The notes beneath the pieces are model-generated. The model did no database searches, was not told the DNA's origin, and saw only the letters and a program-made list of their open reading frames with translations. Made by a program: the position numbers and the translations under genes. Below, one piece after another: positions 5,446 through 19,280 of a stretch of 36,666 bases of DNA (the first letter of the stretch is position 1; each line of letters opens with the position of its first letter). The DNA lies in IMG/VR virus record IMGVR_UViG_3300005753_000012, positions 1-36,666 of that record. One strand, 5' to 3'. This DNA comes from a virus.

Positions 5446-5894
5446 TGATCTCAACTACAAATTTAAGAATTCGCTGTCAAGTTTTGGAGGCAATTTCTAT
5501 TAGTGGGGAGATAGATTCGTATGAAGTTCATGATCTTCTATCTAATTTAGATATTGAGCAAGTAAGAAGCGCAATATACAGATTGCTAGATACAGATAGA
5601 ATATACAAAGTAAAAAAAAGAAAATCATCAAAATCAAATACAACAGTTTGGGTTTACGCATTAAATAATAATTTAGTTGTAGAGAAAAAAGATAAACGAA
5701 AGAAATTAGGCAGAAAAAATTACAAGGAAGAACTTAGAGGAACAAAGAAAGATGGCTTTATTTCAGTTATCTATTTTCGCGATAGGAAAATCAGGTTATT
5801 AACAAGGTTATTACTGAAAGTAGAGAATACAGATACAGATTTAGTACATGGAATTATATCTGACTATAAAATTGAAAGTAATGTGATTAAATGA
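5442..5894 (+). CDS. Hypothetical winged-helix-like protein, 150 aa
   Basis: Residues about 8-65 (RCQVLEAISISGEIDSYEV ... VRSAIYRLLDTDRIYKVKK) look like a winged helix: three helices then a two-stranded wing. A Lys-rich linker follows (about 80-105) and a small helical C-domain. It is coupled to the preceding nuclease gene by a 4-base overlap and to the next gene at its 3' end. DNA binding is likely; target unknown. Confidence 0.6.
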   Translation: MMISTTNLRIRCQVLEAISISGEIDSYEVHDLLSNLDIEQVRSAIYRLLDTDRIYKVKKRKSSKSNTTVWVYALNNNLVVEKKDKRKKLGRKNYKEELRGTKKDGFISVIYFRDRKIRLLTRLLLKVENTDTDLVHGIISDYKIESNVIK

Positions 5895-6954: not shown

Positions 6955-7089
6955 GAGCTCTTTTTTAGTTGTAGTTTTTAGCTTCTTTTGAGCTTTTAGT
7001 AAAACTTTATTTTCATCAACATTTAAAAAGCACTCAAATCTAACTTTGTCTTGTCGATGTCGGTTGTTGTGAGGATCATCTTTACTCAT
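6913..7089 (-). CDS. Small basic protein, last gene of accessory cassette
   Basis: 58 residues; ATG at 7089 overlaps the stop of the upstream zinc-ribbon gene (ATGA). Residues 12-58 (DKVRFECFLNVDENKVLLK ... LLLEMSELVIKRFK) look like a small beta-strand plus two helices, reminiscent of ribbon-helix-helix proteins, but I cannot confirm it. Its 3' end overlaps the end of the Q-like gene on the opposite strand by 42 bases. Confidence 0.55.
   Translation of the reverse strand: MSKDDPHNNRHRQDKVRFECFLNVDENKVLLKAQKKLKTTTKKELLLEMSELVIKRFK
6934..6966 (+). terminator. Intrinsic terminator at end of early-right operon
   Basis: GAGCTC at 6934-6939 pairs with GAGCTC at 6955-6960 (each self-complementary), followed by six T residues (6961-6966). 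The 5' arm lies in the last codons of the Q-like gene and the whole element lies inside the convergent small gene on the other strand. Confidence 0.75.
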
Positions 7090-7358
7090 TTTAAACACTC
7101 AGGACAAATATCATTCTGTAAAAAAGCTCCATTAAACCCACAATTCTCACAAATTAAAAATTTAGCTTCAAACGTCATATAGTCAACTCCTTTTTGATTA
7201 AATGTAATTGCTGCACCATCAGCACCATCATATTTACTAGCATTTTCTATAATCTGGCGATAAGCAAACTCAGCGACATCTTGAGATTCAGTTGTAGTTT
7301 TATCACTGACTCGTTGCCCAGGCCAGCGCACGTAGACTTTGTAAGTTTTAGGTTTCAT
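7086..7358 (-). CDS. Phage zinc-ribbon protein, 90 aa
   Basis: The N-terminal half (KVYVRWPGQRVSDKTTTES) is a conserved-looking segment seen in small phage proteins of unknown role; the C-terminal half has two CxxC knuckles (CENC and CPEC, about residues 70-73 and 85-88) that should bind one Zn. Starts 6 bases after the upstream gene in the leftward accessory cassette. Function unknown; nucleic acid or protein binding is likely. Confidence 0.7.
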   Translation of the reverse strand: MKPKTYKVYVRWPGQRVSDKTTTESQDVAEFAYRQIIENASKYDGADGAAITFNQKGVDYMTFEAKFLICENCGFNGAFLQNDICPECLK

Positions 7359-7613: not shown

Positions 7614-7651
7614 TTTATTTATCTCCGTTTTTGTTTAGATTAACATCATAA

Positions 7652-7687
7652 ATCACTCTAATTAAAGAGTGATCTAGTTATTAACTT
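7652..7687 (-). other. Intergenic hairpin plus 26-bp repeat (copy 1)
   Basis: ATCACTCT (7652-7659) and AGAGTGAT (7666-7673) form a perfect 8-bp stem with a 6-nt loop. Bases 7662-7687 are an exact 26-bp copy of 9452-9477. The repeat includes the stop codon of the 187-aa gene, and the second copy includes the stop of the 128-aa gene. Possible 3'-end or RNA-processing element. Confidence 0.6.
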
Positions 7688-8244
7688 TCGTAAATTAAAA
7701 AATCGGGGCGTCCGTATTCTCCGCTACTAAGATAATAATTTCCTTCATTTTCTTTGTCTATGTAATCCTGTGCGTCTTTTGTAGTACTAAAAGTCATTAC
7801 GTCGCGCTCATCTCTCAACGTGCCGGAAATTTGGTTAGTGTAAGAGCCTTGCGTGTAAAAAACTTCTCGCCAAATCCTAACATCTTCCGATTTTTCTGCT
7901 GCGACTGTTAGCGTTGATTTAATCTCGATATCAAAACTCATTGCGTAGTCTGATAAAGTTGGATATTGATCGAGATCAAAATCATGATTAGCAGATAAAT
8001 AGTCTACTACTATCTCGTTTTCAGATTTTTCACACACTGATCGTGCGCGAAAGGATGTAGTCCAGCCGAAATCATTTACTTCTAAGATTTCGGTCGGCAT
8101 GACAAAGATATTAATTCCCGCATCATTTGTGTAGTGTCGATCTGCTAAATCTTCTAGCGCTGAGATTACATCGTCTGTGTCTAACATATCTTCATCAAGT
8201 AAATACGATGTTTTGATTGCTTCAATTGTTGTTTCTTTAGTCAC
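7681..8244 (-). CDS. Hypothetical protein, 187 aa (GTG start)
   Basis: Two GTG codons are possible (8253, 8244). I prefer 8244, since the near-identical leader of the 161-aa gene has its ATG at exactly this spacing from AAGG. The protein is acidic, with a helical N-terminus (IEAIKTSYLLDEDML), a beta-rich centre and a C-terminal TKDAQDYIDKENEG segment. No catalytic motif stands out and I do not recognise the family. It sits downstream of a structured leader in the accessory cassette; a host-directed (for example anti-defence) role is only a guess. Confidence 0.7.
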   Translation of the reverse strand: MTKETTIEAIKTSYLLDEDMLDTDDVISALEDLADRHYTNDAGINIFVMPTEILEVNDFGWTTSFRARSVCEKSENEIVVDYLSANHDFDLDQYPTLSDYAMSFDIEIKSTLTVAAEKSEDVRIWREVFYTQGSYTNQISGTLRDERDVMTFSTTKDAQDYIDKENEGNYYLSSGEYGRPDFLIYES

Positions 8245-8330
8245 TTTAGTCACCTTATTTTAGTTGCTGCAAACCCGTGCAGCGCGGTTTATATCTGAGA
8301 GCAACCTATTTCTAAGTTGCTCAGGGATAT
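8245..8330 (-). ncRNA. Structured 5' leader RNA, copy A
   Basis: On the minus strand a 40-nt hairpin (8330-8291) has a 5-bp stem ATATC/GATAT, a 3x3 internal loop, a 7-bp stem GAGCAAC/GTTGCTC and a 10-nt loop. It is followed directly by AAACC, GCTGC, GGTTT and GCAGC, giving two overlapping pairings (AAACC/GGTTT and GCTGC/GCAGC), then an A-rich linker and AAGG before the GTG. Copies B and D share the same architecture with different stem sequences. The hairpin begins 2 nt after the upstream stop. Confidence 0.75.
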
Positions 8331-8331
8331 A

Positions 8332-8817
8332 CTAATCTTCTATATTTTTAAAACTTACTGCTGCTTGATCATTGCAATCTATAATAACAGTCATCTTTCT
8401 AGTATCATCCTGCACTGTAATTTCGAATTTTTCGTCTTCATCGTCATTAATCCAATCTTGTTTTATTTCAGTTACTACACCACATTTTCTAAGTTCTGCG
8501 ACAAAATCATCATCTATATTAACGTATTTACTAATCTCACAAAATATGTCGAATGTTTTCATTTCAGCAATGAAGTCAACTTCTAAACATTTCCCTAAAA
8601 TTTCTGGCTCATCAGATGTATCAATTATTGTATTTCCAGATTTTAATTCGTCAAAACGAGTTATCATCCACTCTTTAGAGCCAAGCAAAACCAAGGGGTC
8701 TATAGAATACTTATAAACGAAATCTTTAATTGAATTTATCTCAATAGAGTGAAGATTTTTAATGTAATTGTTAGTGTTAAAAAATGATGTTTCCATTTTG
8801 TCTGTAAATACTTTCAT
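8332..8817 (-). CDS. Hypothetical protein, 161 aa
   Basis: ATG at 8817 lies eight bases after AAGG; an upstream in-frame GTG (8826) overlaps the ribosome site and is less likely. Acidic protein with no recognised domain. Visible features: a helical middle (KDFVYKYSIDPLVLLGSKEW), a FVAELRKCGVVTEIKQDWIN segment (about residues 103-125) with an acidic DDEDEKFE stretch, and a beta-like end. Expressed from the accessory leftward operon with leader copy B. Confidence 0.7.
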   Translation of the reverse strand: MKVFTDKMETSFFNTNNYIKNLHSIEINSIKDFVYKYSIDPLVLLGSKEWMITRFDELKSGNTIIDTSDEPEILGKCLEVDFIAEMKTFDIFCEISKYVNIDDDFVAELRKCGVVTEIKQDWINDDEDEKFEITVQDDTRKMTVIIDCNDQAAVSFKNIED

Positions 8818-8903
8818 TTTAGTCACCTTATTTTAGTTGCTACAAACCCGTGCAGCTCGGTTTATATCACATAGCCCACTTTTTAAAATGGGCTAGAGGA
8901 TAT
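8818..8903 (-). ncRNA. Structured 5' leader RNA, copy B
   Basis: Same layout as copy A: hairpin 8903-8864 with ATATC/GATAT, a 3x3 internal loop, TAGCCCA/TGGGCTA and a 10-nt loop. Then AAACC (8863-8859), GCTGC (8856-8852), GGTTT (8848-8844) and GTAGC (8843-8839). The change GCAGC to GTAGC relative to copy A keeps pairing through a G-U. The region from GGTTT to the start codon is nearly identical to copy A. The hairpin begins within the stop codon of the upstream gene. Confidence 0.75.
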
Positions 8904-9193
8904 TATAAAACTGCTACAACATGTTTACTAAAATCAGTTTTATCTACATCTATGAAAAAAGAGTTTTCGTAAACATCGCTATAAATTTCTTCAATTTCTG
9001 TTTCTGAGTAGTTAACATTCCAGCCAGCTTTTTTAATATATTCCCATGATTTTGAAAAATCCTCAGCATAGTAGTAGCTAATTTCTAAAGCACATTTTAC
9101 AAGTCCATGTTCTGCTGATATTCTTTTATTTCTAGCTCGATTAGTTAAGTTAAATACGTAATCTTTATTTATTGCTAAATATTGTATAGCCAT
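8903..9193 (-). CDS. Hypothetical protein, 96 aa
   Basis: Strong ribosome site (GGAG) before the ATG at 9193. Tyr- and Glu-rich, mostly helical (KCALEISYYYAEDFSKSWEYIKKAGWNV, read here as a helix-turn-helix-like hairpin, not a DNA-binding HTH), then an acidic EIEEIYSDVYENSFF segment. No recognised family. The spacer to the preceding 47-aa gene is only 23 bases and lacks the leader element, so the two are probably co-translated. Confidence 0.65.
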   Translation of the reverse strand: MAIQYLAINKDYVFNLTNRARNKRISAEHGLVKCALEISYYYAEDFSKSWEYIKKAGWNVNYSETEIEEIYSDVYENSFFIDVDKTDFSKHVVAVL

Positions 9194-9216
9194 TTTGTAT
9201 TGCTCCGTTTTTTAAG

Positions 9217-9360
9217 TTAACAACTAATGCATTTTATTGCTTCCTTTTCTGTTATTTCACTGCACTCATATAATTTTTTTACTTGCTTTAACAATTCTGC
9301 GTGTCTTACTGATCTTGCAGATTCCATTTCAATTTCAAAAACGTGACTAAAGTTCTTCAT
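9217..9360 (-). CDS. Small hypothetical protein, 47 aa
   Basis: ATG at 9360 is preceded by a strong AGGAG. The product is a charged helical peptide (EIEMESARSVRHAELLKQVKK) ending in a Cys pair region (KCISC). It is directly downstream of leader copy D. Function unknown. Confidence 0.65.
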   Translation of the reverse strand: MKNFSHVFEIEMESARSVRHAELLKQVKKLYECSEITEKEAIKCISC

Positions 9361-9443
9361 TTTGTATCTCCTAATTTTTGCTAGAACCCGCTAGCTTCGG
9401 TTTATATCGCGTAGCGCACTTTTTCAAATGCGCTAGAGGATAA
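9361..9443 (-). ncRNA. Structured 5' leader RNA, copy D
   Basis: Hairpin 9443-9404: outer stem of 4 bp, 3x3 internal loop, 7-bp stem TAGCGCA/TGCGCTA, 10-nt loop. Compared with copy B a C-G pair is swapped to G-C in the stem. Downstream: AAACC, GCTAG, GGTT, CTAGC, so the second pairing is GCTAG/CTAGC instead of GCTGC/GCAGC: compensatory change on both sides. Ends in a TTAGGAG ribosome site, shared with the promoter-proximal copy. Confidence 0.75.
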
Positions 9444-9451
9444 TTAACTAT

Positions 9452-9477
9452 TTAAAGAGTGATCTAGTTATTAACTT
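9452..9477 (-). repeat. 26-bp intergenic repeat (copy 2)
   Basis: Exact copy of 7662-7687, covering the stop codon of the 128-aa gene and the start of its 3' spacer. Here the partner arm that forms the hairpin in copy 1 is missing, so the intergenic regions look like mosaics of shared modules. Confidence 0.8.
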
Positions 9478-9857
9478 ATAGATACTTTTTTGTCTAACAG
9501 TGCTTCGATCTCCATATTTGCATCAATAATTGCTTGATTAATATCGTCGATAGAGTTTAAAAAGCGTTTGACCTGATCTAAATTTGGATACGCTGTGGGT
9601 AAACTAAAATCACCATAATCGTAAAAAAAATCATCGGAATCTCTTATTGTAGTACATAATAAATCTCCATTTTCGTTATGATCTGACTCTATATATAAAT
9701 AAGTTTGCTTACCGTGTGTGTGCGATTGTCTGTATTCTATTTTTACACAATCTAAGCTCGTGACACCCAATTGCTCCATTTTTGCTACTACTTCATGCGC
9801 TAATTTGCTTGATTTATCTGCTAATTTTTGTACGTTTCCAGTGTTTACTTTTTCCAT
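9471..9857 (-). CDS. Hypothetical protein, 128 aa
   Basis: Good ribosome site (AAAGGAAAAAT). Two helical ends (KLADKSSKLAHEVVAKMEQL, about residues 11-30; FLNSIDDINQAIIDANMEIE, about 98-117) flank a beta-rich centre with KIEYRQSHTHGKQTYLYIES and an acidic/Tyr stretch. The HTH sequence THTHG-like is only a His-rich loop. No known family recognised. Part of the accessory leftward operon. Confidence 0.7.
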   Translation of the reverse strand: MEKVNTGNVQKLADKSSKLAHEVVAKMEQLGVTSLDCVKIEYRQSHTHGKQTYLYIESDHNENGDLLCTTIRDSDDFFYDYGDFSLPTAYPNLDQVKRFLNSIDDINQAIIDANMEIEALLDKKVSIS

Positions 9858-9875
9858 TTTATTTTTCCTTTTTAA

Positions 9876-9915
9876 GATGTTGAAATTAACATCAATTAGC
9901 GCTATTGCTAGCGCT
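9876..9915 (-). other. Tandem hairpins in accessory-cassette spacer
   Basis: AGCGCT (9898-9903) and AGCGCT (9910-9915) form a perfect 6-bp stem; GATGTT (9876-9881) and AACATC (9888-9893) form a second. Both lie between the 62-aa and 128-aa genes upstream of AAAGG. They differ from the leader A/B/D type and may be processing or attenuation structures. Confidence 0.5.
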
Positions 9916-9923
9916 TGCTGATA

Positions 9924-10112
9924 TTAACTTTCTAAATCTACGTGTAAGTTAGTGATTATTTCGTGACCATCATTTTTGCATCTAGTAACTAAGCGTACTT
10001 GCTCATTTGTCCATGTCCACGACAACAATTGCTCATTTTTTAGCTGAGTGTCGACTAGATATATTACGTGATCATCTATGTCTAATATTTGATCTGTTGT
10101 TAATGTGCTCAT
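9924..10112 (-). CDS. Small hypothetical protein, 62 aa
   Basis: ATG at 10112 with AAGGA upstream. Acidic protein (DQILDIDDHVIYLVDTQLKNE) with WTWTNEQVRLVTRC in the middle; probably a small beta-sheet protein. No motif recognised. Confidence 0.65.
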   Translation of the reverse strand: MSTLTTDQILDIDDHVIYLVDTQLKNEQLLSWTWTNEQVRLVTRCKNDGHEIITNLHVDLES

Positions 10113-10147
10113 ATTGTTATTCCTTTTTGTTTGATTGATGATATTAA

Positions 10148-10249
10148 CTATTTAAGCAACCATGCTACATATTTACAGATCGCAACGCCGATCCAATATC
10201 CTCCGGCGGTCATTGTCGCTACTAGTATTAATCCGTTTAAAGTTTCCAT
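10148..10249 (-). CDS. Tiny membrane protein, 33 aa
   Basis: First gene of the accessory leftward operon: ATG at 10249 with AGGAG upstream, TAG at 10148-10150. One hydrophobic span (LILVATMTAGGYWIGVAI) and a short WLLK tail. Single-pass membrane peptide, role unknown. Confidence 0.6.
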   Translation of the reverse strand: METLNGLILVATMTAGGYWIGVAICKYVAWLLK

Positions 10250-10310
10250 TTTTTATCTCCTAATTTTTGATAGAACCCGCTAGCTCGGTTTTTGCTTAAT
10301 CTCTAAGCTT
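10250..10310 (-). ncRNA. Promoter-proximal leader RNA, copy H
   Basis: Runs from the inferred transcription start to the first gene. It has a small hairpin GCTTA/TAAGC, then AAACC, GCTAG, GGTT and CTATC, and the same TTAGGAG ribosome site as copy D. AAACC/GGTT is intact; GCTAG/CTATC has one mismatch. It lacks the 40-nt hairpin of copies A, B and D. Confidence 0.6.
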
Positions 10311-10316
10311 GTAGTA

Positions 10317-10344
10317 AGTATAGCATACGTCCGGACGTTGTCAA
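10317..10344 (-). promoter_or_regulatory. Strong leftward promoter with palindromic operator in spacer
   Basis: Minus strand: TTGACA (10344-10339), 16-bp spacer, TATACT (10322-10317). The spacer contains the perfect 12-bp palindrome ACGTCCGGACGT (10327-10338). A repressor bound there would block RNA polymerase directly. Drives the accessory genes 10249 to 6913. Confidence 0.8.
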
Positions 10345-17199: not shown

Positions 17200-19036
17200 A
17201 TATAAATTTTGGCTAGATGAGATTGAACGAGAAGAAAAGGCTCATGATAAGTATCGTAAAAAAGCGAGGCAAACAGAAGAACGCTATAACTCTGACACAA
17301 ATAAAAAACAAGAGTTCAACATTCTATGGTCTAACACTAAAACAACTCAATCAGCAGTATTAAGTAATACACCTAAACCGGATGTAAGACGGCGCTTTCT
17401 AAGTGACAGCAAAGTAGAACGTGAAGTTGCGGAAGTATTGGAAAAAGCACTTAGCTATTCGACAGATCAATATGATTTCAAAGGTACATTAGATAAGATT
17501 GTTGAAGACTTATTGGTAACGGGTCTGGGTGTTTCGAGAGTTCATTACAAGCCATTTTTTACTAATGTTAAGTCTAATATAGACCTTGAACCAAAAGAAA
17601 TTGAAGATGAATTCGGAGTGGTGACAGTTCGTTATTACAACGATTCAGAAGAAATTTTAAAAGAAAAGGTACAATTTAACGATTCTGGTGATCCTTTTTT
17701 TGAAGGCTTTGAAGAAAAGAAAACATTTGAAGAAGTCTACACTTCACAGGTTCCCTGGGCTAAGTTTCGTTGGCAAGTAGCGGAGTCATGGAATGGTGTT
17801 GCGTGGGCAGCTATAGATCACATGCTGACACGTCAAGAGCTGGTTAGTCAATTTGGTTTGGAAATGGGAGAATCTATCCCGTTACTTTATTCAACTGATG
17901 GCAAACAACGTAATAAAGATGCTAAACAAGGGTCACATGCTTTAGTTTATGAAATCTTTGATAAGCGCGCTAGAAAGTACAGATATTTAGCGCAAGGCAT
18001 GCAGGGTTTTATTAAGATTGTAGATGACCCACTAAAATTAGAAGGATTCTATCCGTTCCCTGAGCCACTAATGGATAATGTTAAATCAGGTGATTTAGTA
18101 CCTAAGCCTGAGTATTATTTTTATGAAGTACAAGCACTTGAGCTTGAGCTTATTAGCAGACGATTAACTAAATTAACAGCTCAATTAAAATATCGTGGAA
18201 TTTATGATTCATCTTTCCCTGGGCTAGGCGATCTAGCAAATGGTGAAGATGGCGACCTAAAAGCGGTTGATGATTTCAAAAATAAGTTTCCAAAGGGCAG
18301 GCTTGAAGATGTAATTGCCTTTATGCCTTTAGAAGAATTAATCAGGGTTATCACGTCATTATCACAAAGACGTGAAGAAGTTAAACAGACTATTTACGAG
18401 ATTATTGGAATCTCAGACATTATTCGCGGTGTTTCTAAAGCAAGTGAGACTTTAGGTGCTCAAGAGATTAAAAAGCAATTTGCTGGTTTGAGAATCAATC
18501 AACGACAACAACGTGTTGAGCGATTCATTCGTGATATTTACAGGATTAAGTCTGAGATCATAGCGGAAAACTTTAGCGCTGACACGTTGACATTAATGAC
18601 GGGAACGCAAGTAACTGATGAAATGTTAGAGATCATGCAAAACGATTTGCTTCGATCTTACAAAATCGATGTTGAGACAGATTCTACAGTTTTTCAAGAT
18701 TCTAAAGAAGAACAGAAAAATAGAGTTGATGCATTAAGCGCGATAACAAGCTTTATGCAGCAAGCTTTTCCATTAATTCAGGCTGGTTTTCTTGACCCTG
18801 AAATTGCCAAAGAAATGGTGCTTTTCGGAATAAGATCATTTAAAGGTGCGAGGCAGTTAGAAGATGCAATCGAAGCAATGGGAAACAAAGATGCTGCTGG
18901 ATCAACACCCGCACCTGCTCAAATTGGCGGGCAAGTACCTGAAAACGGAATTCCCGCCGGAGTCCAAGACCCTAGGGGTGACGTACCAGAACAAGCTAGT
19001 GTTCCTATCGGTTTGGAGCAAATTATCGGTCAATAA
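17192..19036 (+). CDS. Portal protein
   Basis: 614 residues from a TTG that overlaps terL by 8 bases. Long helical protein with a conserved-looking NILWSNTKTTQSAVLSNTPKPDV near residue 50, a wing region, and the stem/clip part with EIIGISDIIRGVSK (about 405-418). The C-terminus (about 565-614) is Pro/Gly/Gln-rich and probably disordered. Length and position directly after terL fit podovirus portals. Dodecamer at the head vertex. Confidence 0.85.
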   Translation: MDKYKFWLDEIEREEKAHDKYRKKARQTEERYNSDTNKKQEFNILWSNTKTTQSAVLSNTPKPDVRRRFLSDSKVEREVAEVLEKALSYSTDQYDFKGTLDKIVEDLLVTGLGVSRVHYKPFFTNVKSNIDLEPKEIEDEFGVVTVRYYNDSEEILKEKVQFNDSGDPFFEGFEEKKTFEEVYTSQVPWAKFRWQVAESWNGVAWAAIDHMLTRQELVSQFGLEMGESIPLLYSTDGKQRNKDAKQGSHALVYEIFDKRARKYRYLAQGMQGFIKIVDDPLKLEGFYPFPEPLMDNVKSGDLVPKPEYYFYEVQALELELISRRLTKLTAQLKYRGIYDSSFPGLGDLANGEDGDLKAVDDFKNKFPKGRLEDVIAFMPLEELIRVITSLSQRREEVKQTIYEIIGISDIIRGVSKASETLGAQEIKKQFAGLRINQRQQRVERFIRDIYRIKSEIIAENFSADTLTLMTGTQVTDEMLEIMQNDLLRSYKIDVETDSTVFQDSKEEQKNRVDALSAITSFMQQAFPLIQAGFLDPEIAKEMVLFGIRSFKGARQLEDAIEAMGNKDAAGSTPAPAQIGGQVPENGIPAGVQDPRGDVPEQASVPIGLEQIIGQ

Positions 19037-19280
19037 TATTGAAGTTTCGATCTTTGCAACAAATAAGATTTGGCGTGAAAGACTAGATTATATAGCTTAT
19101 TACCCTTTTGAGCTGATTGGCGTAAATCGTGTTACAGCTCATGTAAAGGCCGATAATAACAAGGGCATAACGATTGTAAAAGAAATAGGTTTTAAGTACG
19201 AGGGAACGATGAGAGAAGCGCTAGACGGTAAAGACGTACATATATTTGGATTACTTAAAAGAGATTATTATGGGAATTAA
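18999..19280 (+). pseudogene. N-terminally truncated GNAT acetyltransferase
   Basis: The frame contains YYPFELIGVNRVTAHVKADNNKGITIVKEIGFKYEGTM in pieces, i.e. the FxxLGxxRVTxxVxxxNxxxxxxxxxxGFxxEG signature of phage GNAT proteins that follow portals. Only the C-terminal half of the usual ~140-residue domain is present. The best start is a GTG at 18999 inside the portal 3' end; no ATG is in frame downstream before the motif. The missing N-terminal strands suggest a decayed or trimmed gene, or use of a rare start. Confidence 0.6.

Follow-up and report, generated by a model that had tools for sequence, protein, structure and literature searches.

A repeated leader RNA in a phage operon couples RNase III-type hairpins to a putative pseudoknot module that recurs in unrelated phages

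Introduction

A structured 5' end of a bacterial mRNA is expected to slow 5'-end-dependent decay, and the initiation region may be held open by it. Small pseudoknots near the SD motif are known from the preQ1-I and SAM-II riboswitches. In phage T4, the leader of gene 32 contains a pseudoknot 67 nt 5' of the start codon, which nucleates the binding of gp32 on A+U-rich repeats (PMC3014915). The T7 R1.1 site is a proven RNase III substrate that contains an asymmetric internal loop (PMC6121014).

Here we describe a leader RNA that is present in four copies (c1 to c4) in one phage operon. The copies c1 to c3 consist of a 5' hairpin, P1, and a 3' part, module 2, which is composed of AAACCG, a hairpin (stem P2) with a CGGGUU loop complementary to AAACCG, and then the SD motif. 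P1 resembles the T7 sites R0.3, R0.5, R1, R1.1, and R1.3 as well as hairpins of SP6/K1-like phages. All of them are intergenic in polycistronic phage mRNAs with an SD motif downstream, and they share a lower stem, an internal loop, an upper stem of about 10 bp with a U.G pair and a tetraloop, and GAU after the internal loop. However, in the phage studied here, which is not T7-like, the AAACCG/CGGGUU module directly follows P1, the sequence of P1 differs outside the 3' arm, and P1 is a predicted cleavage site.

Module 2 has the H-type connectivity and the location in a phage mRNA leader 5' of the ribosome site in common with the T4/T2 gene 32 leader pseudoknot, but it adjoins the SD motif, precedes unrelated genes, and has another sequence. 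Assignment to the autoregulatory type of T4 gene 32 was rejected, as about 15-25 nt separate the end of module 2 from the start codon and the genes are not ssb genes. With preQ1-I and SAM-II, it would share a compact pseudoknot that adjoins the SD motif. In contrast to these riboswitches, the predicted loop partner is the upstream strand and not the 3' tail, the SD motif is not sequestered, Rfam holds no match, and a shared metabolic gene is absent.

Results

The analyzed stretch of DNA (36.7 kb; 36,666 nt), referred to as the window, corresponds to a virus record of IMG/VR and has a G+C content of 37%. With 49% identity, its terminase most resembles the one of Pseudanabaena phage Pam1, and close relatives of the phage were not found in the collections searched. 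The leaders belong to a leftward operon on the minus strand, which extends from about 10312 to 7086. The predicted promoter (10317-10344, minus strand) has the sequence TTGACA-16-TATACT with an extended -10 element. It was the top promoter-like match of the region (11/12), and transcription would be expected to start at about 10310. Between -35 and -10, the spacer contains a perfect 12-bp palindrome (10327-10338, ACGTCCGGACGT), which is likely to be a repressor operator and has no second exact copy in the window.

The pattern AAACCG-N(5-10)-GGGTT occurs four times in the window, in all cases on the minus strand, whereas 0.02 occurrences were expected. The four repeated leader sites that an earlier note on this DNA had reported are thus real. 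The copies c1 (8330-8266), c2 (8903-8839), and c3 (9443-9379) could be aligned over 65 columns without gaps. Their common order is a foot of 4-5 bp, 3 nt, a stem of 10 bp that is capped by a GAAA or UAAA tetraloop, the return arm, 3 nt, GAUAU, and then module 2, in which AAACCG is followed by 1-2 nt, a stem of 5-6 bp, the CGGGUU loop, and the return arm. P1 therein comprises the 4-5-bp foot, a 3x3 internal loop, the 10-bp stem with an invariant U.G pair, and the tetraloop. The earlier note had described it as a 7-bp stem with a 10-nt loop; the stem was retained, but the loop turned out to consist of three more pairs, including the U.G, and the GAAA/UAAA tetraloop.

All features of the individual copies lie on the minus strand. 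In c1, P1 (8291-8330) carries a GAAA loop, and module 2 (8266-8290) reads AAACCG-C-GCUGCA-CGGGUU-UGCAGC. In c2, P1 (8864-8903) carries a UAAA loop and resembles the SP6/K1-like as well as the T7 sites, and module 2 (8839-8863) reads AAACCG-A-GCUGCA-CGGGUU-UGUAGC. In c3, P1 (9404-9443) has a TATC foot, the 3x3 loop, the 10-bp stem, and a GAAA loop, and the cut is predicted before GAUAU; module 2 (9380-9403) reads AAACCG-AA-GCUAG-CGGGUU-CUAGC. In these three copies, P1 was assigned by fold and covariation, and module 2 by pattern and covariation. The earlier note had placed a shorter, fourth copy at the transcription start. Its place was confirmed, but its structure is only partial. AAACCG, the loop, and the SD motif are kept in c4, while a 5-bp hairpin (GCUUA-GAGAU-UAAGC, 10294-10308), which was found by folding, is weak alone, and is located at the expected native mRNA 5' end, takes the place of P1. 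Module 2 of c4 (10269-10291) reads AAACCG-A-GCUAG-CGGGUU-CUAUC with one C.U mismatch in P2.

For a test of the structure, the foot, the 3x3 loop, the 10-bp stem, the tetraloop, AACC.GGUU, and a 6-bp P2 were scored on c1 to c3. In 97.3% of the cells the bases were paired, and 10 pairs were changed on both sides. Neither value was attained by any of 500 shuffles, and in slid controls 30-45% of the cells were paired, with 0-1 double changes. The earlier claim that the hairpin stems differ and yet pair was therefore borne out. The covariation is strong for the window, although three sequences do not amount to a phylogenetic test. The arms of the upper stem covary (GAGCAACUUA/UAGGUUGCUC, UAGCCCAUUU/AAGUGGGCUA, and UAGCGCAUUU/AAGUGCGCUA in c1, c2, and c3, respectively), as do those of the second stem (GCUGCA/UGCAGC, GCUGCA/UGUAGC, and GCUAG/CUAGC). 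For the latter, the earlier note was right about the covariation but not about the length, as the stem of c1 and c2 has 6 bp and closes the invariant CGGGUU loop. The fold z-scores were -4.1 for c1, -2.8 for c2, and -2.2 for c3; with a z-score of -1.3, the fold of c4 is ordinary. As c1 and c2 are near-identical 3' of P1, this part must have been copied.

In module 2, AACC, the first stem arm, GGUU, and the second stem arm follow one another in the order expected for an H-type pseudoknot. AAACCG and CGGGUU can pair in two registers, AACC/GGUU with 4 bp and 0 nt to cross the groove, or CCG/CGG with 3 bp. In the latter, GUU would span the groove and the P2 strand would continue directly into the loop pairing, which is the classical H-type geometry. 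While P2 is backed by compensatory change, the AAACCG/CGGGUU complementarity is invariant in all rows, in part because the search patterns fixed its bases. Because AACC/GGUU never varies, this pair contributes no covariation evidence, and the pseudoknot pairing is a prediction from complementarity. The earlier note had assumed that the two pairings exclude each other like a switch. This does not follow, because the H-type strand order allows both helices to coexist, and an alternative that sequesters the SD motif is not conserved. No conserved anti-SD pairing was seen, and the SD motif lies outside the module 2 fold. Rfam did not yield a credible match to the element at gathering and E-value thresholds, in line with the earlier note, which could not name a riboswitch either, and a tRNA/tmRNA search found none.

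Each of the four leaders ends at a ribosome site, as had been claimed. A small ORF of 33 aa follows c4 (10148-10249; SD motif AGGAG, 10261-10257), and an ORF of 47 aa follows c3 (9217-9360; AGGAG, 9372-9368). The 164-aa ORF behind c2 (8332-8826; AAGG, 8829-8826) has a likely start at ATG 8817, and the 190-aa ORF behind c1 (7681-8253; AAGG, 8256-8253) has no family match; all four are on the minus strand. Residues 41-137 of the 164-aa protein weakly match ThsB (TIR-like) in PADLOC (E 2.6e-5), without Pfam support. The C-terminal residues 154-187 of the 190-aa protein weakly match AcrIC8 (PDB 8g9s, E 0.009), so that a relationship to anti-CRISPR proteins is possible but borderline. The 90-aa protein of the last gene of the operon (7086-7358, minus strand) resembles the C-terminal end of NrdD (anaerobic ribonucleotide reductase), below the cut-off. 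Homologues of operon proteins were found neither with PHROGs (seven proteins) nor in IMG/VR (two proteins) nor by tblastn against phage records (one protein), and blastn of the operon DNA did not reveal a homologue. Elsewhere in the window, an acyltransferase-like ORF (18864-19280, plus strand; phrog_4470, E 3e-16) lies within the head-gene cluster, where the portal gene ends.

Next, P1 was compared with RNase III sites. The hairpin plan of such sites (lower stem, internal loop, upper stem of about 9-11 bp) was found in c1 to c3 and in two further gap hairpins on the minus strand. One of these (9883-9930, in the gap 9858-9923; -22.3 kcal/mol) has a 13-bp foot, a 2x2 internal loop, a 7-bp stem, and a GCAA loop. 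The other one (7639-7685, in the gap 7614-7680; -17.3 kcal/mol) has a 7-bp foot, a small internal loop, and a stem of 11-12 bp. Module 2 is absent from both. As both of the other long gaps thus contain a hairpin, every operon gap of more than 60 nt (5/5) holds a candidate RNase III site, and all five have the position typical of such sites, i.e., intergenic in a polycistronic mRNA and 5' of an SD motif. GAUAU or GAUG directly follows the internal loop in 5/5 of these hairpins. An identical 26-nt repeat (minus strand, AAGTTAATAACTAGATCACTCTTTAA) is present at 9452-9477 and 7662-7687, each time after a gene. The copy at 7662 forms the 5' arm of the RNase III-type hairpin. The copy at 9452 has lost its partner arm and is followed by c3, which suggests a module swap.

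A model (R1) that was built from c1 to c3 alone was run on two stretches of T7 early DNA that had been picked for containing sites. The best T7 match was R1.1 (15.6 bits, E 0.005), and it ended at T7 position 5887, which is reportedly the R1.1 cut coordinate (Dunn & Studier 1983). R1.3 and R0.3 were matched weakly (E 0.82 and 6.3, respectively). A BLAST search with c2 (E=3, weak alone) led to intergenic hairpins just 3' of ocr-type genes in SP6/K1-like phages. These hairpins contain the GTGGGCTATGTGATAT arm as in c2, match in layout, lie upstream of an SD motif, and are conserved in about 80 records. In two of the SP6/K1-like records, the hairpins after the ocr-type genes (L281, 701-734; L282, 701-735) lie where no RNA is annotated; they are likely RNase III sites. 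Taken together, P1 is probably an RNase III site of the T7 early-mRNA type.

To find module 2 in other phages, IMG/VR was scanned for exact patterns anchored on the SD motif (AAACCG, CGGGTT, then AAGGA or AGGAG), which yielded 87 unique sites. The strict stem length beside the loop was bimodal: 0-3 pairs at 80 sites, 5-7 pairs at 7 sites, and 4 pairs at none. Stems of at least 6 bp were present at six loci, compared with 0.28 expected from random re-pairing of the flanks (at most 3 in 5000 trials). A start codon was in place at 7/7 stem-bearing sites versus 30/80 of the others. Two further sites (L235 and L226) fit module 2 with one bulged A, although the strict rule puts both among the 80. 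Outside the window, module 2 occurs at about nine other IMG/VR phage loci, which were chosen by the fixed bases and have unrelated stem sequences. The AAACCG-to-CGGGTT spacing varies among the sites. Among 12 aligned sequences, changes on both sides were seen in five pairs of P2, with a covariation score of 0.42 versus 0.13 after shuffling. Module 2 is very probably a real structured RNA that is common to several phages.

The genes 3' of module 2 differ. One encodes a major capsid protein (L113), and another one precedes the gene for another major head protein (L350). By our reading, the gene at L253 lies shortly before a 1348-codon, tape-measure-like ORF, and that at L226 lies near a primase-like ORF; the remaining downstream genes gave no family matches. 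As relatives of its capsid gene lack the element, L113 at first looked isolated; scanning with the SD anchor then revealed additional independent occurrences. The other records contain one clear copy of module 2 each, and four copies in one operon are special to the window phage. In the other phages, P1-like hairpins showed no enrichment 5' of module 2, and the idea that a 5' hairpin abuts module 2 in all leaders was not supported. In the 50 IMG/VR records closest by terL, pattern and model searches did not find a copy. In 379 cellular genomes (about 2 Gb, a small sample for phage specificity), 9 pattern matches were obtained, which is not above the reversed-pattern control, and none had a stem by eye. 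We attribute one match in another record (L005), as well as three matches in bacterial genomes, to chance. Literature searches, which did not cover most subscription papers, found no description of the motif.

Discussion

We favor, with a probability of about 55%, a composite mechanism in which RNase III cuts at P1 and a module 2 pseudoknot guards the resulting 5' end and/or sets translation. It builds on the structures, in which both stems covary, on the resemblance between P1 and the T7 sites, and on the presence of module 2 in other phages. Host RNase III would cut P1 directly 5' of GAUAU, on the 3' side of its internal loop. In this way, the gene behind P1 would be released on a separate mRNA with the 5' end 5'-GAUAU-AAACCG-P2-SD, resembling the native end of c4. 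At the end created by the cut, module 2 would fold as an H-type pseudoknot ahead of the SD motif and the start codon, where it would block 5'-end-dependent decay and/or keep the initiation region open. As a result, each operon gene would be present as a stable message and be translated separately. The promoter-proximal mRNA would carry the small 5' hairpin and module 2 at its native end; as a cut would not be needed at the promoter, c4 would require nothing else, and the lack of P1 in this copy at the transcript start was counted in favor of the mechanism. Counted against it were the P2 mismatch of c4, the 4-bp register without a nucleotide to cross the groove, the lack of P1 enrichment elsewhere, the weak scores for R1.3 and R0.3, and the choice of the T7 stretches for their sites. 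Of the translation or transcript-stability switch that the earlier note had proposed, the role in translation or stability is retained as the best class of explanation, but not the switch. Absent from that note were what we regard as the best reading of P1, i.e., a T7-type RNase III site, the two additional gap hairpins without a pseudoknot, and the recurrence of the 3' module alone in unrelated phages.

Alternatively, module 2 could be bound by an RNA-binding protein of the phage or the host that controls the translation of each gene, with the module serving either as an autoregulatory operator or as a recruitment site for a ribosomal protein or S1. The invariant loop and 5' strand over covarying stems resemble a recognized surface, module 2 is always located just 5' of the SD motif, and gp32 at the T4 gene 32 pseudoknot (PMC3014915) sets a precedent. 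However, the downstream genes are unrelated between the phages, and module 2 is single-copy in most records. A shared phage regulator is therefore unlikely, but the protein could be a conserved host factor. Overall, we regard this explanation as unlikely, though the strongest of the alternatives.

It is considerably less probable that P1 is a mere stabilizing hairpin at a 5' end or between genes, or an intergenic cassette that was duplicated and travels with its gene. The near-identity of c1 and c2 3' of P1 does show copying, but the internal loop and the GAU position match the T7 sites, the P1 stems differ by compensatory changes, and the two non-homologous gap hairpins share the same plan.

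A function of module 2 as a small riboswitch that binds a ligand and opens or closes the SD motif seems very improbable. A compact pseudoknot beside the SD motif is reminiscent of several small riboswitches, but Rfam holds no match, the downstream genes have no common pathway, and the SD motif lies outside the fold with no conserved anti-SD pairing seen. Transcription terminators or DNA operators instead of RNA leaders can practically be dismissed: P2 looks palindromic and has terminator-like matches on the other strand, but the coding strand has no T-run after P1 or P2 in c1 to c4, where a minus-strand terminator-like site is absent, and the cross-phage stem covariation, on which the operator reading was rejected, and the variable AAACCG-CGGGTT spacing point to RNA. 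The element thus matched neither of the known kinds, terminator or riboswitch, against which the earlier note had wanted it checked.

More tentatively, and with somewhat less than even odds, AAACCG and the CGGGUU-loop stem may form a novel class of pseudoknots in phage leaders. It would be a portable expression module, which would act as a 5'-end guard or as an initiation enhancer and might be recognized by a conserved host factor, and which in the window phage is coupled to RNase III sites that would give several operon genes equal mature 5' ends. If this is true, a compact, covarying leader pseudoknot of unrelated phages that precedes unrelated genes would constitute a second, more general kind. 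The combination of module 2 with RNase III-type hairpins leads to a simple proposal of how a polycistronic phage transcript may be converted into stable single-gene messages.
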